Shown here: piece by piece, positions 10,534 to 25,295 of the stretch
How the letters are laid out: every line of letters starts with the position of its first letter
Numbering within the stretch: the stretch's first letter is position 1
Virus record (IMG/VR): IMGVR_UViG_3300021959_000106
Location: 1-41,592 of that record
DNA: 41,592 bases
Reading direction: 5' to 3' (one strand)
Source of the DNA: a virus
The notes under the pieces: generated by a model
Told to the model about the DNA's origin: nothing
The model's database searches: none
The model's input: only the letters and a program-made list of their open reading frames with translations
Translations under genes and position numbers: made by a program

Positions 10534-10550
10534 AACTTGTTTCCTTTCTC

Positions 10551-10576
10551 AAAAATGAGGGGGATAAGCCCCCCTC
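10551..10576 (-). terminator. Hairpin with U-tract in a 5' leader
   Basis: Reading leftward, GAGGGGG and CCCCCTC form a 7-bp stem with a 6-base loop, followed by ATTTTT and then directly by the TGAGAAAGGAA ribosome-binding block of the gene starting at 10533. A TATAAT overlaps the previous stop codon just upstream (10588-10583). It looks like a partial terminator or attenuator between two cotranscribed genes. Confidence 0.7.
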
Positions 10577-10583
10577 GTGTAAA

Positions 10584-10922
10584 TTATAAATCAATTTCCT
10601 CAACGCTTTTGGTCTCAACAATTTCTTTACCAAAATTCAAATCTTCTAAGTCAACGCGCTTAAACCCAACTGGCTCAACTCGGAACCAACCTTGTGAAGT
10701 GTGCAACACATCACCAACCGAAGTCGAAGCACAACCCTTGCCAGTGAAACATTTTTGAACAGCACCGTTGTTCCACCAGTAATCATCAACCGTTTGCGTC
10801 ATTGCATAAGCATCGCTGAGTGCAAGAGTGTTATTGTCGGTTGGAGCATCCACAACAGCCACCATGCGGAGTTCGTTGTTGTTGTTCCAGTCTTGTTGCC
10901 AAACACAAACCAATGTAGACAT
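10584..10922 (-). CDS. Hypothetical first protein of the leftward early operon
   Basis: A 112-residue soluble protein. Residues 1-60 carry aromatic/Asn-rich strands (CVWQQDWNNNNELRMVAVVD) and a helix (SDAYAMTQTVDDYWWNNG). The rest is strand-rich with GWFRVEPVGFKRVDLEDL. No family is recognised. It has its own sigma70-like promoter at 10968-10996, a short hairpin in the leader and the TGAGAAAGGAA block before ATG, so it is probably expressed early and strongly. Confidence 0.6.
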   Translation of the reverse strand: MSTLVCVWQQDWNNNNELRMVAVVDAPTDNNTLALSDAYAMTQTVDDYWWNNGAVQKCFTGKGCASTSVGDVLHTSQGWFRVEPVGFKRVDLEDLNFGKEIVETKSVEEIDL

Positions 10923-10967
10923 TTTATTTCCTTTCTCAGTTGGCGGGATTTATTTCCCGATGAAGTA

Positions 10968-10996
10968 ATTATCTCTCTTTTCGGGGAACAGAGCAA
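10968..10996 (-). promoter_or_regulatory. Leftward early promoter
   Basis: On the minus strand TTGCTC (10996-10991), 17 bases, then GATAAT (10973-10968). Downstream the leader carries a CGGGA/TCCCG hairpin (10944-10959) and the TGAGAAAGGAA block (10938-10928), and the gene starts at 10922. The arrangement matches the modules at 16497 and 24648. Confidence 0.6.
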
Positions 10997-11321
10997 CATT
11001 TTTATCACTTTTGTTTCTGTTTTAAAACAAAGACTTACAAAAAATATTAAAAAAAGTTCCCAGACTCTGGGTTACGTTTCCGCTAATAATGTTTTTCGGT
11101 TTCGTCCGTAACCTTTTGTTTTTGCTCAATAAAACAGCAGACCGAAACCAGAAACCACAGATTCTCTGAAATTTCACACACACAACAACACACAAAATCC
11201 TCCTTTATAATAAGCCGACCAATTTCCAAGGACGGGGTCCAAAACAACTCGATCCAAAAGTCTGGGTTCGGCGGTTTCGTTGTTGAAAAATAAGGAAACA
11301 ACCGGAAACGCAAAATTTTTC

Positions 11322-11350
11322 TTTTCTTCAGCACCGAAAACAACGATAAT
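11322..11350 (+). promoter_or_regulatory. Rightward early promoter
   Basis: TTTTCT (11322-11327), 17 bases, GATAAT (11345-11350), followed by TGAGAAAGGA and a GTG start at 11380. It is the only promoter candidate ahead of the first rightward genes, so it probably drives the SSB-primase-helicase section. A hairpin with GTTTC/GAAAC arms and a T-rich run lies just upstream. Confidence 0.6.
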
Positions 11351-11379
11351 TAATCTTCAACGATGAGAAAGGACAGAAA

Positions 11380-11745
11380 GTGCCAAAAGTTTACGTAGTC
11401 AACCGCCCAACTCGTAACAAGTTCGGGTGGACTCCAGATTTAAGTGATGCTGCGCGTTACGGTACACTCGAGATCGTTTTCGAGGAAAACGACCGTCCGC
11501 AGTTCTTGCCGGTGCCGAGCATACAAAAAGCTCGTCGCATCATGAAAGACTTCTCGGCAGAAGATTATATTCTTTGGCCAGGAGGTGGTGACCCGATTGC
11601 GGTGATGATTGTTACGATGATCGCACGTGAAAAGGCCAACACAGTACGAGTGCTCCGTTGGGAGCGCAATCTCGAAGAAGGCGAACGCGACAGGCGGAAA
11701 GGTTGGTACATGCCCGTTGCGCTCGAGTTTAGAAAGGAAGACTAA
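11380..11745 (+). CDS. Conserved hypothetical phage protein (MPKVYVVNR family)
   Basis: A 121-residue protein beginning with GTG six bases after AAAGGA. It opens with MPKVYVVNRPT and contains DLSDAARYGTLEIVFEE, SAEDYILWPGGGDPIAVMIV and VRVLRWERN. This resembles a common family of about 100-residue phage proteins that start MPK-(V/I)-x-V-x-NR, encoded at the head of replication modules. The Rossmann-like strand/helix alternation (YILWPGGGDPIAVMI) suggests an alpha/beta fold, but no function is known. It is the first gene after the rightward promoter. Confidence 0.7.
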   Translation: MPKVYVVNRPTRNKFGWTPDLSDAARYGTLEIVFEENDRPQFLPVPSIQKARRIMKDFSAEDYILWPGGGDPIAVMIVTMIAREKANTVRVLRWERNLEEGERDRRKGWYMPVALEFRKED

Positions 11746-11749
11746 ACGT

Positions 11750-12343
11750 ATGTCAACCGACATTGATCTGCTCATGGACGTGGCACCAGCGTCCACAGAA
11801 CTTGGTGCAGTCGCAGACATGGCTCAACGCATGGTCAATCTCGAAGCTGAGATTGAACGCATGGAAGAGCTGTTGAAGCAAAAGAAGCAGGATCTCAAAG
11901 TGTTGGCGGAGAACGATCTACCAGATCTGATGCAAGAGCTCAACATCCGTAGCTTTGAACTGAACGATGGTTCGAAGATCGACGTGAAGGATGTGATCCA
12001 AGCAAGCATTCCCTCGCAAGGTGCAATCGACCGCGCCAAAGAGGAATCTGTGCGGGCAGAGTTGTTGTTACTCCAACAGCAGTGCTTTGATTGGTTACGC
12101 GCCAATGGTGGCGGGGATCTGATCAAGAGCGCAGTTGAGGTTCAATTTGGACGTGATGAGGACGAGGCAGCAAACGCATTCACTGCAGCTTTGCGTGACC
12201 AACATCTAAATTACAAACGGGCAACCAGCGTCCACCCCCAGACACTTAACAGTTTTATGAAAGAGCGTTTGACGGAGGGTCGTGATGTGCCCATGGAGTT
12301 GTTCAGAGTTTACACTGGTCGTCGTGCCAACATTAGGAGATAA
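11750..12343 (+). CDS. Conserved phage protein with N-terminal coiled coil
   Basis: The 197-residue product has a coiled coil at about residues 25-60 (AQRMVNLEAEIERMEELLKQ). Then come NDLPDLMQELNIRSFELNDG, a helical middle and a C-terminus with SVHPQTLNSFMKERL and ELFRVYTGRRANI. The pattern (coiled coil, a leucine-rich turn then FELNDGS, then SVHPQTL-F and VY-GRRA-I) is shared by proteins that precede the SSB-like gene in many marine podophages. The start at 11750 follows AAGGAAG. A role in replication or recombination is inferred from position. Confidence 0.65.
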   Translation: MSTDIDLLMDVAPASTELGAVADMAQRMVNLEAEIERMEELLKQKKQDLKVLAENDLPDLMQELNIRSFELNDGSKIDVKDVIQASIPSQGAIDRAKEESVRAELLLLQQQCFDWLRANGGGDLIKSAVEVQFGRDEDEAANAFTAALRDQHLNYKRATSVHPQTLNSFMKERLTEGRDVPMELFRVYTGRRANIRR

Positions 12344-12348
12344 TCATT

Positions 12349-13140
12349 ATGGCAAAAGCAGAAGTAGCAAAAAAGCAAAACACCGATGTGGTCGCATTTG
12401 ACTCATCAATACTTTTAGAAGACGCAGGAGCAGGGCTGGAAAACGTCACACGTGACGATATAATGATTCCACGCCTGAGTATTCTGCAAGCGTTAAGTCC
12501 ACAAGTTAACAAACGCGACGGAGCATACATCGAAGGCGCAGAGCAAGGCTCGATCTACGACAACGTTGCGCAAGCTGTGTACGACGGAGCAAAAGGTCTC
12601 ACAGTGATTCCGGTCCACTTCCGCAAAGCACATCTTGAGTGGAAAGCGGACAGAGGTGGATTTGTCGCGGATCATGGACCAGACAGTTCTTGTCTCACAA
12701 CACTGACCAGAGGTTCACGTGGGGAGTATTTAACTCCCGACGGAAACGAAGTTGTTCCCACCTCTGAGTTCATTGTGCTTGTGGTGAACGAGGATGGTTC
12801 TTACATTCCTGCTTCAATCAGCATGTCCAAGAGCCAAAGCAAAAAAGCTCGACAGTGGAACGCAATGATGCAACGTCTCACAATCAATGTGAACGGTCAA
12901 AGCATACCTGCCGCTTCATTTTGGACCGCGTACCAACTCACGACTGTGCCCGAGGAAAACGATCAGGGTTCATGGTTTGGTTGGTCCATTAAAATGTTGT
13001 ACGATGCACAAAGCGGTGGCATCATCGAGCAACTCCCAAATGGCAAAGATTTGTATCTTGCCGCAAGATCATTCCGACAATCCGCAACATCAGGCGAAGT
13101 CAAAGTAGCACAAGAAGTCGACGAAACCGACGTAATGTAA
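12349..13140 (+). CDS. Candidate single-stranded DNA-binding protein
   Basis: A 263-residue protein, mostly beta, with DDIMIPRLSILQALSPQVNK, GLTVIPVHFRKAHLEWK, SMSKSQSKKARQWN and a C-terminal acidic tail (VAQEVDETDVM). Conserved spacing of ILQALSPQ, VIP-(H/Y)-x-(R/K)-x-x-x-EW and KKARQWN is a pattern I recall from replication-module proteins often labelled SSB or gp2.5-like. The acidic tail is typical of phage and bacterial SSBs, which use it to contact partners. The gene is followed by a strong terminator and then the primase. The SSB call is an inference. Confidence 0.5.
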   Translation: MAKAEVAKKQNTDVVAFDSSILLEDAGAGLENVTRDDIMIPRLSILQALSPQVNKRDGAYIEGAEQGSIYDNVAQAVYDGAKGLTVIPVHFRKAHLEWKADRGGFVADHGPDSSCLTTLTRGSRGEYLTPDGNEVVPTSEFIVLVVNEDGSYIPASISMSKSQSKKARQWNAMMQRLTINVNGQSIPAASFWTAYQLTTVPEENDQGSWFGWSIKMLYDAQSGGIIEQLPNGKDLYLAARSFRQSATSGEVKVAQEVDETDVM

Positions 13141-13147
13141 AACTGAC

Positions 13148-13174
13148 GAGAGGGGCTGAGCCCCCTCTCTTTTT
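13148..13174 (+). terminator. Strong intrinsic terminator before the primase gene
   Basis: GAGAGGGG (13148-13155) and CCCCTCTC (13162-13169) form a perfect 8-bp stem with a 6-base loop followed by TTTTT. It lies between the SSB-like and primase genes, directly ahead of a CAGAAAGGA ribosome site. No promoter is evident between them, so it may lower rather than end downstream transcription. Confidence 0.85.
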
Positions 13175-13192
13175 CAGAAAGGAATGATCCTG

Positions 13193-14731
13193 ATGGAAGC
13201 ACCGTTAATTAAACGCTTCATGAAATTGTTTCGTGGCTACTCGCAAGCCCACGGGGAATACCGCGTTTCCAAGCGCGAAGCCGACGGCAAAATGTCGGGC
13301 AGAGCCGTAACCGTTTCCGAACCGGCAACTCTGCAACACTACGAATCTCATTTAAAAGGTGGCGAGTTCATACTCGGTGTGATCATGTTGCGTGATGATA
13401 ACTCGTGCAACTTTGGTGTGATCGACATCGATATCCGTGGCGAAGTTAAGCTGAACGAATCTTTGGAACAGTTGGAGAAAAAAATTAGAGACACCCCACT
13501 TGTGCTTTGTAGATCGAAGAGTGGTGGTGCACACTTGTACTTATTTTGTGAACCGGCTATTGCTGCAATCGACATGGTGGCCAAACTTAACGAGTTTGCC
13601 GCAACGTTGGGTTATGGTGGTGCGGAAATATTCCCCAAGCAAATCAGCCGAGCCAACGACCGAGACCGAGGCAACTGGATTAACTTGTGTTATTGGGATG
13701 GAGACAACACTGAGCGTTTCGCAATTCACAAAGGCAAAAAACTTTCATTGGAAAGTTTTGTAGAGTTTGCAGAAAAGAAAACAACCACATGGGAAAAGCT
13801 ACAAACGTTCGAACCAGACTTAACATCTCACTTCGACGATGGTCCGCCATGCCTTCAACATATCATGACGATGGGCTTCCCAGAAGGTGGTCGCAACATC
13901 TCGTTGTTTAACGTTGGGGTGTACTTCCGGAAAAAGAACCCTGACGACTGGCAAGAGGACTTGATGCGGTTTAATTATGAAAGCATGCCAGCACCCCTGC
14001 CATCTGGTGAGGTCAATGGGTTAATAAAATCCGTGAGCAAAAAAGATTACGCATACACCTGTAAGCAAGCACCAATCTGTAACTATTGTGAGAAGTCCAA
14101 GTGCATGAAGCGTGAGTTCGGGATTGGTGGTGTTGGTGGTGGGTTGGCGATTGAGATCGACGCAATCACAAAGTACGAAACCGAGAACCGCAGTTCTGTG
14201 CGCTGGTACTTAGAGATACAAGGCGAGCGCATCGAGGTCACAACCCAACAACTCCTCGACCAAAGCCAGTTGCAAAAAATATGCGTTGAGAAACTGAACA
14301 AGTGCCCAGCAAAAATGCCTGCACAACGTTGGGAGCAACGCATTAACGAATTGCTTAACACTGTTGAAGTCATACAAGACCCAGACGACGCATCGCCACA
14401 AGGTCAGTTTGAGAAAATGTTGGACTCGTTCTTAACTGGAAAAGTTCAAGCAAGACATCGCGACGAAATTATGAACGCCAAGCCATGGCATGACCCAGAC
14501 GAGGGCAAAGTCTACTTCCGCTCCGAGGACTTATTTATATATCTCGAAGGAAGACGTTTCAGATACCCCTCTCAGCATCAGGTGTGGAGTTGGTTGCGCT
14601 CATCTGGTGGAGACCGGAAGACTTTTCGAATTAAGTCCAAACCAGTTAAAGTATGGTCGGTTCCAGCACCAGAGTTCTACGACGACGAGGATGATTTAGA
14701 AATACCAACTGCCGTACAGGAGCAGTTCTGA
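13193..14731 (+). CDS. AEP-family DNA primase (TOTE-type primase domain)
   Basis: The 512-residue protein should make primers for the phage polymerase. An archaeo-eukaryotic primase core is visible: GVIDIDIR with catalytic D78 and D80, CRSKSGGAHLYLF at about 106-118 carrying the conserved Ser-x-His, and GAEIFPKQ at 143-150. Later come a PriCT-like LQHIMTMGFPEGGRNISLF and a cysteine cluster (CKQAPICNYCEKSKCMK) that may bind zinc. There is no helicase domain; separate helicases are encoded downstream. The start at 13193 is preferred to 13184 because the ribosome site needs about 9 bases of spacing. Confidence 0.78.
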   Translation: MEAPLIKRFMKLFRGYSQAHGEYRVSKREADGKMSGRAVTVSEPATLQHYESHLKGGEFILGVIMLRDDNSCNFGVIDIDIRGEVKLNESLEQLEKKIRDTPLVLCRSKSGGAHLYLFCEPAIAAIDMVAKLNEFAATLGYGGAEIFPKQISRANDRDRGNWINLCYWDGDNTERFAIHKGKKLSLESFVEFAEKKTTTWEKLQTFEPDLTSHFDDGPPCLQHIMTMGFPEGGRNISLFNVGVYFRKKNPDDWQEDLMRFNYESMPAPLPSGEVNGLIKSVSKKDYAYTCKQAPICNYCEKSKCMKREFGIGGVGGGLAIEIDAITKYETENRSSVRWYLEIQGERIEVTTQQLLDQSQLQKICVEKLNKCPAKMPAQRWEQRINELLNTVEVIQDPDDASPQGQFEKMLDSFLTGKVQARHRDEIMNAKPWHDPDEGKVYFRSEDLFIYLEGRRFRYPSQHQVWSWLRSSGGDRKTFRIKSKPVKVWSVPAPEFYDDEDDLEIPTAVQEQF

Positions 14732-14994
14732 TGATGGACCCAAGAGACCGATCCAAGATCGAAAAAATGATTTGGGAGATTAACACCATGAGAACTTACC
14801 ACGAACTATGGACTAGTTTATCACCAAGGCAAGTTTCCGAGATAGTCGGACACATGAAATCTGTCGCACAATATCTCGACGAAGATTTTGTAAAACTCTG
14901 GCCAATGGAAAAAGATGTTAAAGAGTCAATGATGAAGTTTCTTTCTTTCATGCGTTGGATTAAAAATAATTCTTATCACGCTGACAAAGAATGA
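14731..14994 (+). CDS. Small hypothetical protein between primase and helicase
   Basis: An 87-residue helical protein rich in Met and charged residues (IEKMIWEINTMRTYHELW, VGHMKSVAQYLDEDFVKLW, MMKFLSFMRWIKNN). The start overlaps the primase stop (TGATG) and its own stop overlaps the helicase start (ATGA), so all three are translationally linked. That suggests a replication accessory, for example a linker between the two enzymes. No known family was recognised. Confidence 0.65.
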   Translation: MMDPRDRSKIEKMIWEINTMRTYHELWTSLSPRQVSEIVGHMKSVAQYLDEDFVKLWPMEKDVKESMMKFLSFMRWIKNNSYHADKE

Positions 14995-16451
14995 GACACG
15001 TTCAAGTAATACTTGGTCCGCCAGGAACTGGCAAGACAACTACGCTCCTACGCATTGTTGAAGATGCATTAACACGTGGTGTTCCGCCAGAGCGCATTGC
15101 TTACTTGGCGTTCACCCGCAAAGCTGCATACGAGGCACAAGAGCGAGCAATGTTACAGTTCGGATTCGACGAGGCACGCTTCCCGTTTTTCAGAACGTTG
15201 CACTCGTTGGCATTCAGAGAGCTGGGGTTACAGCGCGACGAGGTCATGACTGATAACCATTACCGCAAACTTGGCAAAGCACTCGGGGTTGAGTTCAGAG
15301 GCATCTACGATGAAGACTTGGGGATTCACACTGGTGATGGGCTGGGAGATAAATGTTCACGCATCGAGAGTTTGGCGCGTGTTGGGTTACGTTCTGTTGA
15401 GGATCAATACCATATAACCTCTGTGAACGATTTAACACTTCATGCAGCTCGACAATACGACAGATCTTTGCGTGCATATAAAAAAGAGTTAGGTCTGTTC
15501 GATTTCACCGACATGCTCGAATCCTACAACACCGAACTCGACATCGACATTTGCATCATTGACGAAGCACAAGACCTGAGCTCACTACAATACAAAATGG
15601 CAATCAAAGCCGCATCCTGTGCCAAGGAAGTTTACATTGCCGGCGACGATGACCAAGCAATTTTTGGTTGGGCTGGTGCAGATGTTAACAAGTTTTTAAA
15701 TTTATCTGGAGACCGTAAGATACTCCCGCAAAGTTACCGCATCCCGCGTTCGGTTCACAAACTCGCACTCAACATTGTCAGTAGGATTAAAAATCGTTAT
15801 GTGAAACCATGGTCACCACGCACAGATGCTGGCTCAGTCGAGTACATCGCAGATGAGCAACAAATCGATTTCGCAAAAGATGGCACATGGCTTTGCATGA
15901 GCCGGAGCAAGTACCTACTGAATCGCTTCAGACTGTCTGCTCGACAGCAAGGCTACGCATATTTATACAACGGACAAAACTCTTTGGAGACTGAAGAGAC
16001 TCGCGCCATATTGAGTTGGGAACGGTTACGCAGTGGTGGAAAGATCACACTGTTCGAATATAAAAACATGATTCAGTTTCTGATTGAAAAACCGAGGCTG
16101 AAAAAACAAGACACATACGTTTTTAAAGATTTTGGTTTTCCGGATGCAGCTCGGGAGTTTGATTGGATGCGGATGTTGCGCGGGATTGCCCCAGACGAGC
16201 GTGAGTATCTACGGTCATGTTTACGCAATGGGGAGAAGTTTTTCGAGAAACCAAGGATCACAATATCCACCATTCATCAATCAAAAGGTGGCGAGGCAGA
16301 CAACGTTGCGTTAATCACCGACATGGGCAAGCTGAGTTGGGAGAACTCTCACAAGGATGAGGAGAACCGAGTTTGGTATGTGGCAGTGACCAGAACTCGT
16401 CAAAATCTGATGTTAATCAGACCAAGAGGTCTGAGGCACTATGAAATTTAA
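14991..16451 (+). CDS. UvrD/Rep-like superfamily 1 DNA helicase
   Basis: A 486-residue ATP-dependent 3'-5' type helicase by motif content. Walker A is GPPGTGKTTT (9-18); motif Ia region LAFTRKAAYEA; motif II IIDEAQD (189-195); motif III GDDDQAIFGWAGAD; motif IV QSYRIP; motif V TISTIHQSKGGEADNVAL; motif VI VWYVAVTRTRQNL. It is shorter than UvrD (about 720) because domains 1B and 2B are reduced, as in many phage versions. It probably unwinds DNA at the phage fork or in recombination. The ATG overlaps the preceding stop. Confidence 0.92.
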   Translation: MRHVQVILGPPGTGKTTTLLRIVEDALTRGVPPERIAYLAFTRKAAYEAQERAMLQFGFDEARFPFFRTLHSLAFRELGLQRDEVMTDNHYRKLGKALGVEFRGIYDEDLGIHTGDGLGDKCSRIESLARVGLRSVEDQYHITSVNDLTLHAARQYDRSLRAYKKELGLFDFTDMLESYNTELDIDICIIDEAQDLSSLQYKMAIKAASCAKEVYIAGDDDQAIFGWAGADVNKFLNLSGDRKILPQSYRIPRSVHKLALNIVSRIKNRYVKPWSPRTDAGSVEYIADEQQIDFAKDGTWLCMSRSKYLLNRFRLSARQQGYAYLYNGQNSLETEETRAILSWERLRSGGKITLFEYKNMIQFLIEKPRLKKQDTYVFKDFGFPDAAREFDWMRMLRGIAPDEREYLRSCLRNGEKFFEKPRITISTIHQSKGGEADNVALITDMGKLSWENSHKDEENRVWYVAVTRTRQNLMLIRPRGLRHYEI

Positions 16452-16496
16452 TGATAACTCTTTGTTTTTAAATGAAAATAAAATTGATTAAAATTG

Positions 16497-16525
16497 TTTT
16501 CTTTTTGACAGAATTAAGAGATAAT
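16497..16525 (+). promoter_or_regulatory. Rightward promoter after the helicase gene
   Basis: TTTTCT (16497-16502), 17 bases, GATAAT (16520-16525). A TTGACA also lies inside the spacer, but it has no -10 box at proper distance. The leader holds a hairpin and the TGAGAAAGGAA block (16556-16566) before the ATG at 16573. Confidence 0.55.
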
Positions 16526-16545
16526 TATTAAACTGACAGAATTAA
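16506..16545. repeat. 12-bp direct repeat TGACAGAATTAA flanking the -10 box
   Basis: The 12-mer TGACAGAATTAA occurs exactly at 16506-16517 and 16534-16545, 28 bases apart start to start. One copy lies in the promoter spacer, the other just after the presumed start and within the leader hairpin. Two same-oriented copies about 2.7 helical turns apart around a promoter look like an operator pair. Confidence 0.5.
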
Positions 16546-16556
16546 CTGTCTTTTTT
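16535..16556 (+). terminator. Leader hairpin with U-tract (attenuator-like)
   Basis: GACAG and CTGTC form a 5-bp stem with a 6-base A/T loop, followed by TTTTTT and then the ribosome-binding block of the next gene. The stem is short, so termination would be partial. The position between promoter and gene matches the leader hairpins at 10944 and 24686. Confidence 0.45.
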
Positions 16557-16572
16557 GAGAAAGGAACTTAAC

Positions 16573-16935
16573 ATGCGTAAAGCAGCCGAGATTTATTTAG
16601 AAGCGCACAATGCAGGAATCATCGCCGGACAACGTCATACGCCACAACCGATGATTGTGACTTGGACCGACAGCAACAACCAACCACAGCGTGAAGTTGT
16701 TAGTGATGGGTTGTGTGGATTTGCTTGGATTAAAATCCACCCAGCACGCGGTAAGTTTGTGAAGTTTCTGAAAGACAACAACATTGGGCGCAAGTCTCAG
16801 TTTGAGACTGGGTACACAATTTGGGTTAATGAATTTAATCAAAGCCATGAACGCAAACGCGCCTACGCACAAGCATTCTCCGAGGTGCTCAGAAAGAACA
16901 ACATTGACGCTTACCCACAGTCAAGATTAGACTAA
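16573..16935 (+). CDS. Conserved hypothetical phage protein, 120 residues
   Basis: A soluble alpha/beta protein with AAEIYLEAHNAGIIAGQ, a strand TPQPMIVTWTD, a conserved-looking GLCGFAWIKIHPARGKFVKFLK and a C-terminal SHERKRAYAQAFSEVL...SRLD. The CGFAW-x-I-x-PA and AYA-AFxxVL-SRLD pieces recur in small proteins of replication modules that I recognise only by pattern. It starts after AAAGGAAC. Function unknown. Confidence 0.68.
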   Translation: MRKAAEIYLEAHNAGIIAGQRHTPQPMIVTWTDSNNQPQREVVSDGLCGFAWIKIHPARGKFVKFLKDNNIGRKSQFETGYTIWVNEFNQSHERKRAYAQAFSEVLRKNNIDAYPQSRLD

Positions 16936-16936
16936 C

Positions 16937-17410: not shown

Positions 17411-18348
17411 TGTTTATTTATGGAGCAGGATTGGCAGGTCTGTTGGCGGCACACGCTTTGCGTAGGTTTGATCCTACCATTTGTGAGTCGCAAGGTTCTC
17501 TGCCAAACAACCATGGAGCTCTGTTGCGGTTCCGAACTGACAAAGTCGGCACAGCCTGTAACATACCGTTCAGGAAAGTTCGCGTTCACAAAGCAATCAA
17601 GTACGATGGCAAACTCGTGACAACGCCGAATCTTTTCTTGAGCAATTTGTATTCACAAAAAGTCACAGGTGCGATACTGAGCCGTTCGATCAGCAATTTG
17701 GATCCGGTTGACCGTTACATTGCTCCTTGGGAACTCATAAGCGCAATGTCTAAAAACTGCAACATATTGTACAATGATCCAATGACGATGCAGTCGATAG
17801 AGGATGCAAAAAAGTACAACACCCCAATCATCTCCACAATACCGATGCCGATACTGATGAAGATTGTTGGTTGGCCAGATGTGCCAGAGTTCCCTAAGCA
17901 AAAAATCTACACACAGACTGCACGCATTATAGACATGGAGTGCGCGGTTCACCAAACCGTTTACTACCCTGACCCAATCACAGATCACTACCGAGTTTCA
18001 GTCGTGGGTGATACGGTGATATCTGAATTCATCCGCAAGCCTAACATGAACGCTGGACAGCACACAATGATCACGCTGATGGATGATTTCGGTATAAAGC
18101 CAACCAAGCTCGTCGATATAAAAGAATCTTCTCAGGAGTTCGGGAAGATCCGACCAATCGACGAACGGTTACGCAAGCAGTTTATTTTTGAAATGACCAC
18201 CAAACACAACATTTACTCCGTTGGGCGGTTTGCCACTTGGCGACAGCTGTTAATGGATGATGTTGTTGAGGATTTAAAAATCATAGACGAGTTCGTCTCG
18301 AAAGAATCTGACTATTCACGTTGGATGCATTCTCAGAAAGGAAAATAA
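17410..18348 (+). CDS. FAD-dependent oxidoreductase-like protein
   Basis: The 312-residue protein starts with a dinucleotide-binding fold, MFIYGAGLAGLLAAH, with the GxGxxG motif at residues 5-10. Near the end it has the C-terminal FAD-contact pattern IYSVGRFATWRQLLMDDVVED. The overall shape resembles UDP-galactopyranose mutase or protoporphyrinogen oxidase-type flavoproteins, but the substrate is unknown. It lies 1 base before thyX, and ThyX itself needs reduced FAD, so a link to thymidylate synthesis or redox supply is possible. I prefer the ATG at 17410 (TGATG overlap). Confidence 0.7.
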   Translation: MFIYGAGLAGLLAAHALRRFDPTICESQGSLPNNHGALLRFRTDKVGTACNIPFRKVRVHKAIKYDGKLVTTPNLFLSNLYSQKVTGAILSRSISNLDPVDRYIAPWELISAMSKNCNILYNDPMTMQSIEDAKKYNTPIISTIPMPILMKIVGWPDVPEFPKQKIYTQTARIIDMECAVHQTVYYPDPITDHYRVSVVGDTVISEFIRKPNMNAGQHTMITLMDDFGIKPTKLVDIKESSQEFGKIRPIDERLRKQFIFEMTTKHNIYSVGRFATWRQLLMDDVVEDLKIIDEFVSKESDYSRWMHSQKGK

Positions 18349-18349
18349 A

Positions 18350-18994: not shown

Positions 18995-19002
18995 GAGGAT
19001 TT

Positions 19003-19194
19003 ATGAAAAAGTTGTTAGCTATTGCTGTTCTGTATTGTTCGGTTGCGATCCCTGCCATGTCCGCCACGCTGTTGCGGTGCGAGGGAGTTTCCACTGCGCA
19101 AGGGTTCAAATATGTAGGAACGTACTGCATGGATTATGATTGCAAATATGTTCAGAGGTATGTTTTTAATTCTTGGTGTCCATACAGCATTTAA
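19003..19194 (+). CDS. Small secreted cysteine-containing protein
   Basis: This 63-residue protein has a classic signal peptide (MKKLLAIAVLYCSVAIPAMSA), with likely cleavage after AMSA. The mature part is about 42 residues with cysteines in RCEG, TYCMDYDC and NSWCPYSI, probably forming two disulfides in the periplasm. It starts after AGGAGG. It sits between thyX and a small HTH gene rather than in the lysis cassette, so it may act on the host envelope early. Function unknown. Confidence 0.65.
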   Translation: MKKLLAIAVLYCSVAIPAMSATLLRCEGVSTAQGFKYVGTYCMDYDCKYVQRYVFNSWCPYSI

Positions 19195-19201
19195 GGAGAA
19201 A

Positions 19202-19396
19202 ATGATGTCCAAATACAAAAGTTTCAAATATGATCAGGCTTGTGTTGATAAGGTCCACGCTCTCCGTAAACAGGGCAAAACCTACCTACAAATAGCCGAG
19301 GAGATGGGCTGGCAGGGCAAAAAGACAGTCCAGTACCTGCTGAGTAAACGCAAGAAAACTGGGCTCCTGAGAAGGGTTTTCAGGCTTTTCTTTTGA
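19202..19396 (+). CDS. Small helix-turn-helix protein
   Basis: The 64-residue basic product (ATG at 19202 or, with better spacing to AAGGAG, 19205) has an HTH-like core: DKVHALRKQGKTYLQIAEEM then GWQGKKTVQYLLSKRK. A turn GKTYLQIAEEMG and recognition helix KTVQYLL fit a compact DNA-binding fold such as homeodomain-like or resolvase-type HTHs. The last codons overlap an intrinsic terminator. It could regulate the phage promoters; the target is unknown. Confidence 0.62.
   Translation: MMSKYKSFKYDQACVDKVHALRKQGKTYLQIAEEMGWQGKKTVQYLLSKRKKTGLLRRVFRLFF
19366..19394 (+). terminator. Terminator overlapping the HTH gene's 3' end
   Basis: CCTGAGAA and TTTTCAGG form an 8-bp stem (one G-T pair) with a 3-base loop, followed by CTTTTCTTTT and the TGA stop. 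The U-tract includes TTTTCT, which also serves as -35 box of the next promoter. Confidence 0.72.
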
Positions 19397-19414
19397 TCAA
19401 TTACAGAGTATAAT
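19386..19414 (+). promoter_or_regulatory. Promoter fused to the terminator U-tract
   Basis: TTTTCT (19386-19391), 17 bases, TATAAT (19409-19414), then TGAGAAAGGAA at 19427-19437 and the ATG at 19442. The predicted start is only about 20 bases from the gene, so the leader is very short. The same terminator/promoter overlap occurs on the minus strand at 9704-9754. Confidence 0.6.
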
Positions 19415-19441
19415 AATGGTTCTTACTGAGAAAGGAAAAAT

Positions 19442-19600
19442 ATGGAAAAATTCATAGTGTTTTTCACTAATGAGCTCGGGTTCAAATATCCGATACGTTG
19501 TGATGATTCTGCTTCGGTTTTGAAAGAAATTGAAAAGCTGTTAAAGGATCATGAATCTGGTGAGACGCCATTAAACAATATTGACATTGAAATTTTCTGA
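19442..19600 (+). CDS. Small acidic protein, 52 residues
   Basis: A 52-codon frame (MEKFIVFFTNELGFKYPIRC ... NNIDIEIF) behind a promoter and a good ribosome site. The strand-helix-strand layout (FIVFFTNE, ASVLKEIEKLLKDHE, NIDIEIF) predicts a small folded alpha/beta protein. Its stop codon TGA is part of the TGAGAAAGGAA block of the next gene. Not recognised as any family. Confidence 0.6.
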   Translation: MEKFIVFFTNELGFKYPIRCDDSASVLKEIEKLLKDHESGETPLNNIDIEIF

Positions 19601-19614
19601 GAAAGGAACAAAAG

Positions 19615-20109
19615 ATGAACATATTTTATCTACACCATTACGCGCCTCTTGCAGCAATAGCACACTGTGACAAGCATTGTGTTAAGATGATTCTCGAGAC
19701 CGCGCAGTTGCTCAGCACCGCACACCGAGAGTTGGACGGCGACACCAACGCAGACGCGCTCGGTATGTACAAGTCCACTCACAAGAATCACCCGTCAGCA
19801 GTTTGGGTACGTTCTTCAATCAAACATTACCGTTGGGCTTATGAGCTTTTTGCATCGCTCTGCAAAGAGTACACTCACCGTTACGGCAAAGTCCACAAGA
19901 CCGAGCAAAAGCTGTTACAAGCTCTTAAAGAGTTACCCAAAAACATTCCGGACGTTGCTTGGACTCAACCACCACAGTGTATGCCGGATCAATACAAACA
20001 ACACCCCAACCGCGCAGTGCAAGCGTACCGCGATTACATTGTAGGTGAAAAAATTTCTTTTGCAACAAAGTACACAAACAGAGAGGCTCCATCGTGGATA
20101 AGCGCGTAA
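19615..20109 (+). CDS. Conserved phage protein with HCDKHCVKMILE motif
   Basis: A 164-residue protein beginning MNIFYLHHYAPLAAIAHCDK, then HCVKMILETAQLLSTAHREL, MYKSTHKNHPSAVWVR, CKEYTHRYGKVHKTE and MPDQYK. The dense His/Cys/Asp pattern (HCDKH, KNHPSAVW, YTHRYGKVHKTE) is a widespread phage family that I recognise by pattern; some databases link it to pyrimidine-dimer glycosylase, which I cannot confirm. The leader TGAGAAAGGAACAAAAGATG is identical to that at 24706. Function open; conserved His/Asp suggest an enzyme. Confidence 0.68.
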   Translation: MNIFYLHHYAPLAAIAHCDKHCVKMILETAQLLSTAHRELDGDTNADALGMYKSTHKNHPSAVWVRSSIKHYRWAYELFASLCKEYTHRYGKVHKTEQKLLQALKELPKNIPDVAWTQPPQCMPDQYKQHPNRAVQAYRDYIVGEKISFATKYTNREAPSWISA

Positions 20110-20528
20110 TTATTTCAGATTTAGACGGTACGTTAGGGGATTATGGTCATAGGGTTGAGCTCTATAAAAAGCGTGAGTATGAACAATTCAACGCAGAAGG
20201 AATTAAAGACAGACCGATTGAAGCCATCTGCAACATACTGCGTAGGTTAAAAGACCCAGAGACAGAGGTTGTTATCATGACTGCGAGAACTGAGCGCAAC
20301 CGGACAGAGACCGAGCGTTGGTTGAAGCTGAACGATATACCTTACGACAGATTGCTGATGAGACCAAACGACAATCACCTTTCAGACGCAGACTGCAAAC
20401 AAAAAATCTTTCAGGACAATTTTAATTACAAAGATGTTTGGTTTGTGCTTGAGGACAAAAGCAGTTGTGTGGACATGTGGCGTGGGGAAGGTGTTCATTG
20501 TTTACAAGTTGCTCCAGGAGATATGTGA
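20094..20528 (+). CDS. HAD-superfamily phosphatase (PNKP-like)
   Basis: The 144-residue product starts at a GTG overlapping the previous gene and shows HAD motif I IISDLDGTL (D9, D11), motif II VVIMTARTERN and motif III/IV region SDADCKQKIF ... VWFVLEDKSSCVDMW. This matches the phosphatase half of T4 polynucleotide kinase-type proteins, which removes 3' phosphates from nucleic acid ends or nucleotides. No kinase domain is fused. It may repair ends or act on nucleotides; substrate inferred. Confidence 0.8.
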   Translation: MDKRVIISDLDGTLGDYGHRVELYKKREYEQFNAEGIKDRPIEAICNILRRLKDPETEVVIMTARTERNRTETERWLKLNDIPYDRLLMRPNDNHLSDADCKQKIFQDNFNYKDVWFVLEDKSSCVDMWRGEGVHCLQVAPGDM

Positions 20529-20767
20529 TGCCAGAACTTAAATTGAACGGAAATGATTTGGAACTTGACGGGGAAAAGGTTGCGCGGGTTTTCGACATTG
20601 TTGGCACGATGCGTTACAATTTAGAAAAAGCAATCGAGAGAACTTACATCGACCGAGAAGAGGAAGGCATGAGTTGGCAAACTGCATACTCTGAAGGTTG
20701 GCAAGACGGATACCGGCAAGGGCTGATTGAAGCAATGAACAAAGAAAAGGAACATTATGACTCCTGA
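20528..20767 (+). CDS. Small hypothetical protein, 79 residues
   Basis: A short protein with strands at the start (LKLNGNDLELDGEKVARVFD), a helix (TMRYNLEKAIERTYI) and a GWQDGYRQGLIEAMNK end. Start and previous stop overlap (TGATG). The QTAYSEGWQDGYRQG stretch resembles small phage proteins of unknown role. No function assigned. Confidence 0.6.
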   Translation: MPELKLNGNDLELDGEKVARVFDIVGTMRYNLEKAIERTYIDREEEGMSWQTAYSEGWQDGYRQGLIEAMNKEKEHYDS

Positions 20768-21044
20768 ACAATGCATGGAACAAGCTCTGGAAACTTTCCG
20801 AGAGCGGAGCAAAGTCTACGGGCAGAACTACCTTCAGCACGGAAAAGTTATGACAGCTTTGTTTCCGGATGGTATAACTCTGCGTACTGAGGAGGAGTGG
20901 AATCGTTTCGGGATTGTTAACATGATTGTTGCCAAGTTGACGCGGTACGCTCAAAATTGGCCAGACACTCATATTGATTCAGTCCACGATATGGGAGTTT
21001 ATGCGTTCATGTTGGAGTCTTTGGATCATGACATTAATAATTAA
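20757..21044 (+). CDS. Conserved phage protein, possibly nucleotide-associated (DUF6378-like)
   Basis: A 95-residue helical protein: ALETFRERSKVYGQNYLQHG, KVMTALFPDGITLRTEEEWN, RFGIVNMIVAKLTRYAQNW, IDSVHDMGVYAFMLESLD. The ERSKVYG-NY and AKLTRYA and D-x-x-VYAxM blocks recall MazG-like or DUF6378-type proteins found beside nucleotide-metabolism genes. All-alpha NTP pyrophosphohydrolases use E-rich helices of this kind, but the usual EExxE cluster is not obvious. Family memory is moderate. Confidence 0.6.
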   Translation: MTPEQCMEQALETFRERSKVYGQNYLQHGKVMTALFPDGITLRTEEEWNRFGIVNMIVAKLTRYAQNWPDTHIDSVHDMGVYAFMLESLDHDINN

Positions 21045-21201
21045 CGGCGAAACCAGCAAAACTTGTCAAGGCTGTAGGACTCGTCCAGCATTCAAAAGAA
21101 TATTGTTGAAGAACGGGCAACGACATTGGCGATGTGATGTTTGTTTGGCCAAGAAAAAGCCATCTGGCTTCAAAAGGAAAACTGCTGATGATAGTGTATG
21201 A
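21028..21201 (+). CDS. Small zinc-ribbon protein
   Basis: A 57-residue protein with two CxxC knuckles, CQGC and CDVC, 25 residues apart, and a basic tail (AKKKPSGFKRKTADD). The layout is that of a minimal treble-clef or zinc ribbon that may bind nucleic acid. It overlaps its neighbours on both sides by 14-17 bases. Function unknown. Confidence 0.62.
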   Translation: MTLIINGETSKTCQGCRTRPAFKRILLKNGQRHWRCDVCLAKKKPSGFKRKTADDSV

Positions 21202-21721
21202 TTTGGAAACGACCGGCTTGCCAAAAGCAGAAGGTTCTGACCTAGAAATACAACCGAAGATCATCGAGTTTGGTGGATTGAAACTCGACGCAGATCTGAA
21301 CGAGGTTGCTCGGTTGGAGTTTTTCTGCAATCCTGGTCATGAGTTAGATCCTCAGATCACCAAGATCACAGGCATCACCGACGAAATGCTGAAGGATGAA
21401 AAACCTTTCATAGGGAATTACAAAACATTGTGTGATTTTTTCCTTGGCGAAAGTCAGCTCGTGGCGCATAATTTATCTTTCGACCGTAGAATACTGCGGT
21501 TCGAACTAGAAAGGATAGACAAGATTACAAAGTTCCCATGGCCACCAGATCATATTTGCACTATGGAAATAAGCAAGTCTGTTTGGGGCAAGTTCCGTAA
21601 ACTCGGAGATATTTATTTCGAGGTTACTGGGGAAGAGCACACTGGCGCACACCGTTCGATTGCGGATGTTGAAGCAACAGTGAAAATTTTAAAATGGTAC
21701 AGAAAGGAAGGGCACATCTGA
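21188..21721 (+). CDS. DnaQ-like 3'-5' exonuclease (DEDDh)
   Basis: A 177-residue exonuclease with ExoI YDLETTGL (D5, E7), ExoII HNLSFDRRIL (D99) and ExoIII GAHRSIADVEAT (H155, D160), the complete DEDDh set. It matches the bacterial epsilon subunit core of about 180 residues. Two genes later is a DnaE-like polymerase, so this is the obvious proofreading partner. The start at 21188 is used because AAAGGA lies 9 bases upstream. Alternative: a general repair exonuclease. Confidence 0.88.
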   Translation: MIVYDLETTGLPKAEGSDLEIQPKIIEFGGLKLDADLNEVARLEFFCNPGHELDPQITKITGITDEMLKDEKPFIGNYKTLCDFFLGESQLVAHNLSFDRRILRFELERIDKITKFPWPPDHICTMEISKSVWGKFRKLGDIYFEVTGEEHTGAHRSIADVEATVKILKWYRKEGHI

Positions 21722-21780
21722 TGGATCCAATAGTTATTAATTTTATAGCTGTGTTGGTTGCGGTTATACTTTTCCCATGA
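21721..21780 (+). CDS. 19-residue membrane micro-protein between exonuclease and polymerase
   Basis: MDPIVINFIAVLVAVILFP is encoded in the exact gap between the two replication genes. Its ATG overlaps the exonuclease stop (TGATG), its TGA overlaps the polymerase start (ATGA), and an AGAAAGGAAGGG site lies about 11 bases upstream. The peptide is almost entirely hydrophobic and would make one membrane helix. It could be a coupling device that feeds ribosomes to the polymerase gene, or a real membrane peptide. Confidence 0.5.
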   Translation: MDPIVINFIAVLVAVILFP

Positions 21781-24590
21781 TCAATATCCGAGTCAGAACT
21801 GAGTACTGTTTCCGTAAAGCGTTCGGCTCGGTTAATAAAATAGTAGAATCTGTCAGCGGAGATGCAATCGGGATATGTGATTCTGGCACTTGGGGTCATG
21901 TAAACTTTAGCAAGGTTTGCAAATCTGCTGGCAAAAAGCCTCTGTTCGGGGTTGAGATTCCTGTTGTTGGAGATGCAACAGAACGTTCCAAGCAACCCGC
22001 CAACGAGATGGCTTTCATCGCCCGTAACAATGCTGGGCTGACAGAAATTTACAAGCTGGTGACAAAGAGCACTGACAAAGAACATTTTTATTATTATCCT
22101 CGGCTTGGGTACGATGATTTGTTCGATGTGAGTGAAAACATCATTATGCTGAGCGGAACAACACCGGATTGGGGTTTGTTACCGTTAACAAAGAAAGAAA
22201 ACCTTTTCATAGAGCTGAACCCAATGAGCTCACGCAAGGCTCTGGAGTTTGCAGAGAAAAAAGGTTTTCAGGTTGTGGCGACTTCAGATAATTTTTACCC
22301 AACAGTGAGAGACAAAAAAGCGTACGAGGTGCTGGTTGGTAAAAACCGCACAGACCGTACTGCCCCGATGCACGTTTTAAATGAATGGGAGTGGAGAGAT
22401 GCACTCCCTTGGGCACCTGAGATTGCACTGGAGAATACTTACAAAATTGCACAGATGTGCGATGTTAATCTACCGACCGCACAGATGGTTTCCTTCCACA
22501 GCCAGAAGACTTTGCTACAAATGTGTGAGGAAGGTGCAAAGCGTAAAAATATAAATTTGGACGACGAGGTTTATGCCGCAAGGCTCAAGCGTGAGCTGGA
22601 TATGATTGCGCAGAAAAACTTTGAAGATTATTTTTACGTCATCGCGGATATGATCAAGTACGCAAAGCAACATATGTTGGTCGGACCAGCGCGTGGTTCT
22701 TCAGCTGGGTCTCTGGTTTGTTATTTGATTGACATAACCGACATTGACCCAATTGAACATGATTTGTTGTTTGAGCGTTTCATCGATATCACTCGTGAGG
22801 ACTTGCCAGATATTGATATTGATTTTCAGGATGATCGAAGAGAAATGGTATTTGAATATTTGCGAGCTAAATACGGTGCAGAGAAAGTTGCACACTTGGG
22901 GACAGTTTCCCGTTACAAAGCCAAGAGCACAATCGCAGAAGTTGCCAAAGAGCTCGGCATCCCGTCTTGGGAAGTGAACGACTTGAAAGGTGCAATTATA
23001 GAGCGTAGCTCTGGAGATTCACGTGCCGCGTTTTGTATCCTGGACACATTTAATGAATTGGATGTTGGCAGGGCTGTGCTGGAAAAATACCCACAGATGA
23101 AAGTTGCCGCAGATATGGAAAACCACGCTCGGCACAACGGGGTTCATGCCGCAGGGATTATTGTAACTGAGCACCCAGTGAGTGAGTACTGTTCTGTTTC
23201 TGGTCAGACAGGTGCAGCACAGATTGATAAAAAAGATGCTGAAGAACTTAATCTGTTGAAGATTGATGCACTCGGATTGCGCACACTTTCTGTTTTGCAG
23301 GATGTGCTTGATCAAGTAGGGTGGGACAGAGACAAGCTGATCAATTACCCTTTGCAGGATGAAGCTGCATTTGAAGTTTTAAACACTGCCAAGTACGCAG
23401 GCATTTTCCAGTTCGAGGGCTATGCGCTACAATCCGTCACTCACCAAATGAAGGTTCATAGCTTTGAGGACATTGCCGCAATCACAGCTTTGGCGCGTCC
23501 TGGACCACTTAACTCCGGAGGCACAACCGAGTATATTAAACGTCACACTGGTGAAGCTCCGGTGGAGTATTTGCACCCATTAACTGAAAAAATAACAAAA
23601 GTCACCAACGGGGTTGTTGTTTATCAGGAACAGGTCATGACGATTGCACGCGATGTTGGCAAGTTGTCATGGGAGGATGTTTCGACTTTGCGCAAAGCGA
23701 TGTCCAAATCTTACGGAAAGGAATATTTTGACACATTCTGGGAAAGGTTCAAAGTTGGTGCAGCTGAAAATGGAATATCTGAGGAACAAGCCCAGCGCAT
23801 TTGGGATAATATCAACACTATGGGCAGTTGGGCTTTTAATCGCTCTCATGCCATTGCTTATGGGCTTGTATCTTATTGGTGCTGTGTTCTTAAGTCTAGA
23901 TTTCCTCTTGAGTTTGCTGCTGCGTGTTTGCGTAACGTTAAAGATGATGAGCAAGCGGTTCGTCTCTTACGTGAAGTGGTGAAAGAGGGTCTGGGCTATA
24001 AACCGTTTGATAAATTCAAGTCGAAGCAAAACTGGTCTGTGCAGGATGGAGAGCTGATTGGTGGGCTGGGCGGTATTAAAGGCATTGGTCCAAAAATGGC
24101 AGAGGACATTGTTGAGCGCAGAAAACTCAAACAACCATTGACACCACGTCAGGAAAAACTGCTGAACGAGGGCACAACCCCATATGACGATATTTTCGAG
24201 TGCGACCGCAAGTTCGGTCACATAAAGCGTGATCCGGAAAAGTACAACATCCGTACACAAATCACTGACATTGAAAAACTCGACGCAGACACTCCAGGAA
24301 CATTTGTGTTTTTCGGTAAGCTGAAAGAGAAAAACTTACGAGACATGAACGAAACCGTCAACCTCGCAAAGCGTGGCGGTCGTCGGGTTGATTCGAACAA
24401 TCTATGGCTGAACATGACTTTTGAGGATGACACTGGTCCAATCATCGCGACCATTGACCGTTTCAAGTACAGTAAAATCGGTAAACAAATAGTCGAGGAT
24501 GGACGCATTGGAGATTGGTACTTGATAAAAGGGAATTTAAGAGCTGGATTCCGTAAGATTTATGTTGAAAAGTGGAGGAAGCTCGAATAA
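21777..24590 (+). CDS. Family C DNA polymerase (DnaE-like alpha subunit)
   Basis: A 937-residue replicative polymerase. The palm carries GPARGSSAGS (303-312), LPDIDIDF with D345/D347/D349 and the third acid in LLKIDALGLRTL (D497); NHARHNGVHAAGIIV is the conserved His-rich block. After the fingers come a helix-hairpin-helix (GLGGIKGIGPKMAEDI) and an OB-like C-terminus (LWLNMTFEDDTGPIIATID). It is shorter than bacterial DnaE (about 1160), with no tau-binding tail visible. The N-terminal PHP domain is degenerate (RTEYC and CDSGTW in place of HSxYS and TDHGNM), so it is unlikely to bind metal; proofreading would come from the DnaQ protein upstream. Confidence 0.93.
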   Translation: MINIRVRTEYCFRKAFGSVNKIVESVSGDAIGICDSGTWGHVNFSKVCKSAGKKPLFGVEIPVVGDATERSKQPANEMAFIARNNAGLTEIYKLVTKSTDKEHFYYYPRLGYDDLFDVSENIIMLSGTTPDWGLLPLTKKENLFIELNPMSSRKALEFAEKKGFQVVATSDNFYPTVRDKKAYEVLVGKNRTDRTAPMHVLNEWEWRDALPWAPEIALENTYKIAQMCDVNLPTAQMVSFHSQKTLLQMCEEGAKRKNINLDDEVYAARLKRELDMIAQKNFEDYFYVIADMIKYAKQHMLVGPARGSSAGSLVCYLIDITDIDPIEHDLLFERFIDITREDLPDIDIDFQDDRREMVFEYLRAKYGAEKVAHLGTVSRYKAKSTIAEVAKELGIPSWEVNDLKGAIIERSSGDSRAAFCILDTFNELDVGRAVLEKYPQMKVAADMENHARHNGVHAAGIIVTEHPVSEYCSVSGQTGAAQIDKKDAEELNLLKIDALGLRTLSVLQDVLDQVGWDRDKLINYPLQDEAAFEVLNTAKYAGIFQFEGYALQSVTHQMKVHSFEDIAAITALARPGPLNSGGTTEYIKRHTGEAPVEYLHPLTEKITKVTNGVVVYQEQVMTIARDVGKLSWEDVSTLRKAMSKSYGKEYFDTFWERFKVGAAENGISEEQAQRIWDNINTMGSWAFNRSHAIAYGLVSYWCCVLKSRFPLEFAAACLRNVKDDEQAVRLLREVVKEGLGYKPFDKFKSKQNWSVQDGELIGGLGGIKGIGPKMAEDIVERRKLKQPLTPRQEKLLNEGTTPYDDIFECDRKFGHIKRDPEKYNIRTQITDIEKLDADTPGTFVFFGKLKEKNLRDMNETVNLAKRGGRRVDSNNLWLNMTFEDDTGPIIATIDRFKYSKIGKQIVEDGRIGDWYLIKGNLRAGFRKIYVEKWRKLE

Positions 24591-24647
24591 ATTTTACAAG
24601 TGATTGAATTTAAAAACCTAATAACCGTAAGGGCTGTAAGCAAAGTG

Positions 24648-24676
24648 TTGCTTTCTCTGGCAGAAAAAAGTATAAT
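24648..24676 (+). promoter_or_regulatory. Promoter of the cysteine-peptidase gene
   Basis: TTGCTT (24648-24653), 17 bases, TATAAT (24671-24676): the best sigma70-type match in the window. A leader hairpin and TGAGAAAGGAA follow. It lies just after the polymerase gene, so the peptidase can be made independently of the replication operon. Confidence 0.7.
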
Positions 24677-24685
24677 TAATGTATT

Positions 24686-24706
24686 GGGAAATGTTTCCCG
24701 ATTTTT
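24686..24706 (+). terminator. Leader hairpin with T-run before the peptidase gene
   Basis: GGGAA (24686-24690) pairs with TTCCC (24695-24699) around a 4-base loop, and TTTTT follows after two bases. The element sits between the promoter and the ribosome-binding block, where it would attenuate transcription or protect the 5' end. Confidence 0.55.
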
Positions 24707-24722
24707 GAGAAAGGAACAAAAG

Positions 24723-25169
24723 ATGGAAAAACCAGCACCACAGAAACGCGAAGTTTTCGACTGTTACGGAACACGTAGGAGAACTTGGTGTGGACCATAC
24801 GTAGTTGCAGCAGTAGCCAAGATTGACTACGAGACCTCTTATCAGGCTTTCCGCACTCACACCGGCAAACGCCACGTTGCCGGAACTTCACACTGGCAGT
24901 GCCGAGCTGTTCTGGAGCAGTTCGGGGTCGATTCTGGAAAAGTCGAACGCCCAACAAAACGTAAAAAACTCTACCACTACCTGCGCGAGAACATGGACAA
25001 TAAATTGTACATCGTTTGTGTGGGGAACCACTGGGTATTGGTCGACGGCAGGGACAACAGCATAACCGACAGCTGGACAGCTGGGGAGTGGAAACACATA
25101 AGTGAGTCTGAGCACAAGAACAGGTTCGTGAAATACTTCTTCCCGATCCTGAGCAGACCCAGATTCTGA
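24723..25169 (+). CDS. Papain-like cysteine peptidase candidate
   Basis: A 148-residue protein with a candidate catalytic triad: RTWCGPYVVAAVAKI (Cys23 at the start of a helix), GNHWVLVDG (His103 before a strand) and NSITDSWT (Asp116). This order and spacing (CG-x-x-x-x-A helix; H-W-V-x-V-D; I-x-D-S) is that of C39-like and other papain-fold peptidases. There is no signal peptide, so it should act in the cytoplasm. It has its own promoter and leader hairpin in the early region. The target is unknown: host protein, phage protein, or a modifier-type substrate. It could also be a transglutaminase-like fold. Confidence 0.6.
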   Translation: MEKPAPQKREVFDCYGTRRRTWCGPYVVAAVAKIDYETSYQAFRTHTGKRHVAGTSHWQCRAVLEQFGVDSGKVERPTKRKKLYHYLRENMDNKLYIVCVGNHWVLVDGRDNSITDSWTAGEWKHISESEHKNRFVKYFFPILSRPRF

Positions 25170-25177
25170 TGGGAAAT

Positions 25178-25194
25178 CCCCTCAAAAAGAGGGG
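25178..25194. other. Hairpin downstream of the peptidase gene
   Basis: CCCCTC and GAGGGG are a perfect 6-bp inverted repeat around AAAAA, beginning 8 bases after the peptidase stop. The following AAATAT is not a U-tract, so it is a weak terminator at best; a 3' stabilising hairpin is as likely. Confidence 0.45.
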
Positions 25195-25237
25195 AAATAT
25201 CCCTGTAAACCTTTGTTTTAAAACATGAAGAAATTTG

Positions 25238-25266
25238 TTTTAATAAGTGGCGGAATACAGTATAAT
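25238..25266 (+). promoter_or_regulatory. Promoter of the OB-fold protein gene
   Basis: TATAAT (25261-25266) has a weak TTTTAA 17 bases upstream (or TTGTTT with 20 bases). A GTTTTAAAAC palindrome at 25215-25224 precedes it, like the one at 11019-11028. TGAGAAAGGAA at 25279-25289 and the ATG at 25296 follow. The -10 box is strong, the -35 box poor. Confidence 0.5.
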
Positions 25267-25295
25267 TATTATAAATACTGAGAAAGGAAAGCAAA

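Follow-up and report, generated by a model that had tools for sequence, protein, structure and literature searches.

What does a short sequence block do that recurs directly ahead of the genes of a marine phage: is it an ordinary Shine-Dalgarno (SD) site, or part of a leader that controls these genes together? The stretch that raises the question is the IMG/VR virus record IMGVR_UViG_3300021959_000106, analysed over its full 41.6 kb (the window; genes are named by their start coordinates). Its plus strand from 11380 to 28414 carries replication-side genes, including an AEP-type primase (13193), helicases, ThyX (18350) and DNA polymerase III alpha (21777), and its minus-strand genes are mostly structural (terminase, portal, virion proteins). 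A first-pass annotation had proposed that at least six genes share a leader made of a (T/G)ATAAT box, in some cases a hairpin, and a common ribosome-site block, and had suggested translational or attenuation control.

The pattern T-N-AGAAAGGA was found 11 times in the window against 0.44 expected, and all 11 occurrences (11/11) lie on the coding strand directly 5' of a replication-side gene. Searching for TGAGAAAGGA with at most one mismatch retrieved 13 matches (4.3 expected), and the exact GAGAAAGGA retrieved 8 (0.5 expected). The form TGAGAAAGGA stands on the minus strand before genes 10533 (10542..10551) and 10922 (10929..10938), and on the plus strand before genes 11380 (11364..11373), 16573 (16556..16565), 19442 (19427..19436), 19615 (19598..19607, where gene 19442 ends on the TGA of the block), 24723 (24706..24715) and 25296 (25279..25288). 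The form TCAGAAAGGA, also on the plus strand, precedes the primase gene 13193 (13174..13183) and, from within the end of gene 17410, the ThyX gene 18350 (18333..18342). A plus-strand copy overlooked in the first reading, TTAGAAAGGA at 11729..11738, lies within the end of gene 11380 and serves gene 11750. All six genes originally listed do have both the block and the box, the count of six being an undercount; the further blocks named at genes 10533, 13193, 18350 and 19615 are real, those of 13193 and 18350 differing by one base, and the 20-mer at 19598 is indeed repeated identically at 24706. The idea that the block belongs to a promoter-hairpin module did not stand: it is not tied to one, and the copies at 11729 and 18333 lie in the coding sequence of the preceding gene.

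The same block runs through a whole phage family, which is uncultured and coastal-marine, and in this sense the proposal of a shared leader holds. Among 80 related IMG/VR loci, recruited via the primase gene (77-100% primase identity), TGAGAAAGG and its overlaps were the most over-represented 9-mers, with 346 occurrences on both strands, about 21-fold over Markov expectation. A start codon follows close behind in 422 of 434 variant sites in these relatives, and in most of the approximately 330 non-redundant sites it lies 6-9 nt from the GG of the block, a short SD-like distance that is fixed, whereas the distance from the block to the -10 box varies. When IMG/VR was scanned for TGAGAAAGGAANNNNNATG, 16 of the 19 contigs with at least three sites, among the matches listed, encoded relatives of this phage.

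Use of the block is restricted to one class of genes. It was present in 237 of 486 non-redundant replication-side leaders as compared to 0 of 98 structural-side ones, counts that are not independent trials because the leaders share descent, and in which the structural side is sampled more thinly owing to the primase-based recruitment. The window alone gave 11 of 25 and 0 of 30 genes, respectively. For a given gene, the orthologs nearly all have the block or all lack it, its use being fixed by gene: it precedes 58/66 homologs of gene 11380, 56/61 of gene 11750, 69/81 of the primase gene 13193, 38/43 of the ThyX gene 18350 and 36/43 of gene 19615, and none of the homologs of gene 12349 (0/78) or of the polymerase (0/21), terminase (0/44) and portal (0/35) genes. 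Replication-side genes that overlap the preceding gene mostly lack it. A rule that the block marks only translationally uncoupled genes fails in part, as gene 11750 and the ThyX gene 18350 abut the preceding gene yet carry the block, and structural-side genes with gaps never have it; an uncoupled translation start is a tendency of block genes, not a rule.

The AGAAAGGA core is complementary to the ...UCCUUUCU end that characterizes one class of bacterial 16S tails, and is a known tail-specific SD (PMC5427494); both the CCTCCTTTCTAAGG and the CCTCCTTA tail occurred in the real genomes sampled. The block also contains something more. When AGAAAGG sites were collected without selecting for T, T was found two bases upstream (position -2) in 96% of them, and in 98-100% where the intergenic gap exceeded 25 nt. 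Position -3 was a pyrimidine in about 80% of the sites, and the base at -1 was free (G 46%, T 24%). This T was absent at the aligned place before the AAGGAG, AAGGA and AGGAG sites of the same phages, which supports the earlier impression of a signal beyond an SD match. One unrelated phage (L232, G320:C1:19153-22064), which uses AGAAAGGACAACAACAATG-like ribosome sites repeatedly in one gene cluster and has eleven AGAAAGG sites on a single strand, showed no T preference at -2. Pairing with the 16S tail was considered as the cause of the conserved U; the free base at -1 argues against it.

A generic sigma-70 scan of the region predicted 27 promoters as compared to 28 in shuffles, and the promoter case was therefore rebuilt from the relatives. 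A fit to 194 leaders yielded a two-box motif, TT[G/T][A/C]CT-17-[T/G/C]ATA[A/C]T, with an AAGAG-like sequence 5' of the -10 box. Of these leaders, 91 scored above the 99th percentile of shuffled leaders, a somewhat optimistic number since the motif was fitted and tested on the same 194, and 75 of the 91 have the 17-nt spacer, as expected of sigma-70 promoters. The boxes first proposed stand at the places given for them, and the promoter proposal is carried by a real family-level motif, the generic scan having shown no excess. Gene 10922 on the minus strand has GATAAT at 10968..10973 and TTGCTC at 10991..10996, 17 nt apart. On the plus strand, gene 16573 has TTTCTT-16-GATAAT (16498..16525, box at 16520-16525) and gene 24723 has TTGCTT-17-TATAAT (24648..24676, box at 24671-24676), while the plus-strand genes with short leaders have GATAAT at 11345..11350 with TTTCTT at 11323-11328 and a spacer of 16 (gene 11380), TATAAT at 19409..19414 (gene 19442) and TATAAT at 25261..25266 (gene 25296).

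The distance from the -10 box to the block is distributed bimodally, with ranges of 7-21 and 26-37 nt. A single predicted hairpin fills 23 of 25 long leaders, with its first pair 0-3 nt from the predicted +1, and thus at the extreme 5' end relative to that position, and its end reaching the block; shuffled leaders gave 4.5 ± 1.7. The mean minimum free energy (MFE) was -7.3 for long and -0.5 for short leaders, and the block is unpaired in 18 of the 25 MFE folds. These 5' hairpins have 5-10 bp, end 2-9 nt before the ribosome site and occur in about a quarter of promoter-bearing leaders. At one and the same position the stems have unrelated sequences (CGGGA/TCCCG, TTGGGAA/TTCCCAA, GTTGGG/CCCAAC, GTTAGC/GCTAAC, AGAGG/CCTCT), and a search of Rfam gave no match. 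The three hairpins reported between box and ribosome site in the window are present: CGGGA-AATAAA-TCCCG at 10944..10959 on the minus strand, its first pair at about +3 of the predicted transcript; GACAG-AATTAA-CTGTC at 16535..16550 on the plus strand, in the leader of gene 16573; and a plus-strand hairpin around GGGAA-ATGT-TTCCC at 24684..24701, in the leader of gene 24723.

We believe that these elements probably form a composite leader for replication-side genes, consisting of a host-type promoter, an optional mRNA-protecting 5' hairpin and a ribosome site matched to the 16S tail. The short message would start at a sigma-70-type promoter, presumably transcribed by the host RNA polymerase, and may carry a hairpin predicted to begin at +1 to +4. 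The likely job of such a hairpin would be to keep the 5' end from RppH and 5'-sensing RNases and to hold the ribosome site open, since both RppH and RNase E require a single-stranded 5' end and 5' hairpins are known to stabilise mRNA (PMC3997798). In the actual host, U-N-AGAAAGGA would then pair over 8 nt with a 16S tail ending in ...UCCUUUCU. It appears to serve genes that start translation alone, overlapping genes mostly relying, it seems, on coupling or a plain SD, and the U at -2 would be a conserved extra beyond tail pairing, with no reader assigned to it. Most likely, the leader protects RNA and loads ribosomes rather than acting as an on/off attenuator.

Several observations weigh against this composite leader. 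The 5' hairpin is not essential, because most leaders lack one. While AGAAAGGA is complementary to CCTCCTTTCT tails taken from real genomes, the tail of the phage's own host may differ. Tail pairing would not lead one to expect a U at -2 set off by a free base, and stronger-pairing sequences (AGAAAGGAGG) are not preferred, as about 80% of sites have A rather than G after GGA. In B. subtilis, tail-matching SDs are found mainly on lowly expressed genes (PMC5427494). Finally, the terms "early" and "late" stand for replication-side and structural-side and were assigned by gene function and strand, not by a time course, and the gene starts come from a simple caller, in which SD matches score favourably.

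The conserved U is what gives weight to a different explanation, in which U-N-AGAAAGGA is a translational operator through which a phage or host RNA-binding protein, or an RNase of the T4 RegB or RegA kind, boosts or shuts the early set together. At 96% conservation, unexplained by 16S pairing and missing both before ordinary SDs of the same phages and from the unrelated phage that uses AGAAAGG as its SD, the U speaks for this explanation; structural-side genes never have the block, and the principle is known in T4, where RegB cleaves the GGAG of early SDs while RegA occupies early initiation sites (PMC3014915). However, among the early proteins scanned against Pfam and PHROGs we found no RNase and no CsrA-, RegA- or RegB-like match, and the T4 motifs (GGAG; A+U-rich sequence around AUG) do not fit the block; we regard an operator as rather unlikely, although a regulator of some other type may exist. 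The most novel scheme, which we likewise consider unlikely, is one in which U-N-AGAAAGGA marks a translational class: a phage or host factor would read the U together with the SD on replication-side messages only, giving a temporal switch of ribosome loading, while the 5' hairpin would set message lifetime. That the block is nothing but a strong SD site in A+G-rich DNA, as its AAGGA at SD spacing might indicate, seems extremely unlikely to us. It is far above the frequency expected by chance in both the window and the relatives, and the restriction to one gene class, together with a U missing from plain SDs of the same phages, refutes this as a full account.

The hairpins, in turn, could be intrinsic terminators or attenuators, governing how much transcription continues into the gene behind them. 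T runs follow several hairpins of the window (13148-13169, 10557-10576, 16535-16550), and its terminator-like sites number 29 as compared to 18.9 ± 4.3, an excess. Some window hairpins are indeed GC-rich and directly followed by a U run, but most orthologous ones, including those ahead of the primase gene, are not; most 5' hairpins of the relatives likewise lack U runs, and they start at +1 to +4, with no space for a leader peptide or a rival fold. Neither competing folds nor a leader open reading frame were seen, the predicted transcript beginning at the hairpin; short leaders have no hairpin at all, and the block recurs without hairpin or promoter. Attenuation control is therefore not supported, chiefly because most hairpins lack a U run, and we give this reading very little credence. 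The leaders might also be copies of a mobile promoter-hairpin cassette of the type of the T4 PeSLs, similar through recent common descent rather than function. The identical 20-mer fits such copying, as does a divergent region that in different relatives has different small genes behind similar leaders. Yet copying would bring stem and flanks along, whereas the stems of relatives share geometry and not sequence while block and spacing stay, and the block alone is also found within upstream coding sequence; a cassette origin is thus very unlikely.

Additional hairpins lie outside the 5' ends. On the minus strand between genes 10922 and 10533, a GC-rich hairpin at 10557..10576 is followed by ATTTTT and is terminator-like in this phage. 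An intercistronic hairpin at 13148..13169 on the plus strand separates the stop of gene 12349 from the primase block. A perfect stem of at least 6 pairs, 2-12 nt before the block, recurs at this place in 38 of 42 non-redundant leaders (L002-L081), whereas shuffles gave 2.6. The stem occurs in 32 different sequences, the loop measures 3-34 nt, and what follows is mostly GACGAC, GACCAA or GCAT rather than a U run. This pre-primase hairpin is a second element, separate from the 5' hairpins and an independent RNA or DNA element; most likely it would shield the upstream message on its 3' side or insulate the primase start. A strong nested hairpin, CCCCTC-AAAAA-GAGGGG at 25170-25204, lies just past the stop of gene 24723 and ahead of the 25296 promoter, and looks like an operon end. 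The divergent region 10923-11379 (457 nt) holds repeated GAAACC/GGTTTC and TCTGGGTT elements, which recur in the relatives L062, L076, L018 and L056 (regions of 418-458 nt) and not in L013 and L058, and is a candidate operator or replication origin.

Three successive genes at 11380-13140 match Pam3 gp32, gp33 and gp34 (PF23992, PF23984, PF23977), a conserved trio of no assigned function that heads the rightward operon. The protein at 20094-20528 matches a PNKP-type HAD phosphatase domain (PF25109, E 1.6e-24), which suggests a role in repairing RNA or DNA ends. IMGVR_UViG_3300021962_000134 (54,512 bases; L002, L091, L098) is 100% identical to the window in three proteins (the primase and those of 34530-36227 and 25296), so that the window is probably part of a longer genome.

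The 16S-tail match predicts a host with a CCUCCUUUCU tail; a host 16S 3' end of this form would favour the tail-matched SD, and CCUCCUUA would contradict it. The closest named phages, Cronobacter phage Ss1 and Vibrio phage VA-RY-3, are distant (43% in the polymerase), and no near-identical phage was found in INPHARED. In the distant relatives that infect the gammaproteobacteria Vibrio and Cronobacter, the block precedes 0 of 36 and 1 of 34 genes. Searching for TGAGAAAGG...ATG in 299 Pseudomonadota and 289 Alphaproteobacteria genomes gave few matches in each, so that hosts in these groups do not commonly use it as a ribosome site. The contigs found related in GTDB were only 36-40% relatives, in metagenome-assembled genomes of mixed phyla, and the three loci checked had no block with T at -2. 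For widespread uncultured marine phages, promoter motif, 5' hairpin and ribosome site can be scanned in metagenomes and offer a sequence-only handle on early expression, and the extra conserved U poses a testable puzzle: what, beyond SD pairing, selects a class of messages.

Several known systems resemble parts of this leader. The PeSL cassettes of T4-like phages, described as promoter-terminator composites that mediate shuffling (PMC4503421), likewise join an early promoter to a stem-loop and are repeated between small early genes; measured against that description, most hairpins of our phage family lack U runs, most stems are not terminators and their sequences are unlike each other, and the phage, with its podovirus-type portal and PolIII-alpha polymerase, is not T4-like. 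The T4 RegB/RegA control of early mRNAs (PMC3014915) resembles the leader in having a sequence-level mark in early-gene ribosome sites, but the motif of this family is a different one, its function may differ, and no RegA or RegB relative was found among the early proteins scanned. The stabilising stem-loops of E. coli ompA and papA (PMC3997798) similarly place a hairpin at the 5' end or a few nt from it, with an exposed ribosome site behind it; the phage hairpin, in comparison, is a predicted structure in a short leader, optional but recurring on several genes of a single phage family. The tail-specific SDs of B. subtilis and of phage phi29 gp6 (UAGAAAG/AGAAAGGA; PMC5427494) have in common with the block the AGAAAGGA core, complementary to ...UCCUUUCU, and an SD-like distance to the start codon, to which the block of this phage family adds a conserved U at -2, a free base between, and a restriction to replication-side genes.

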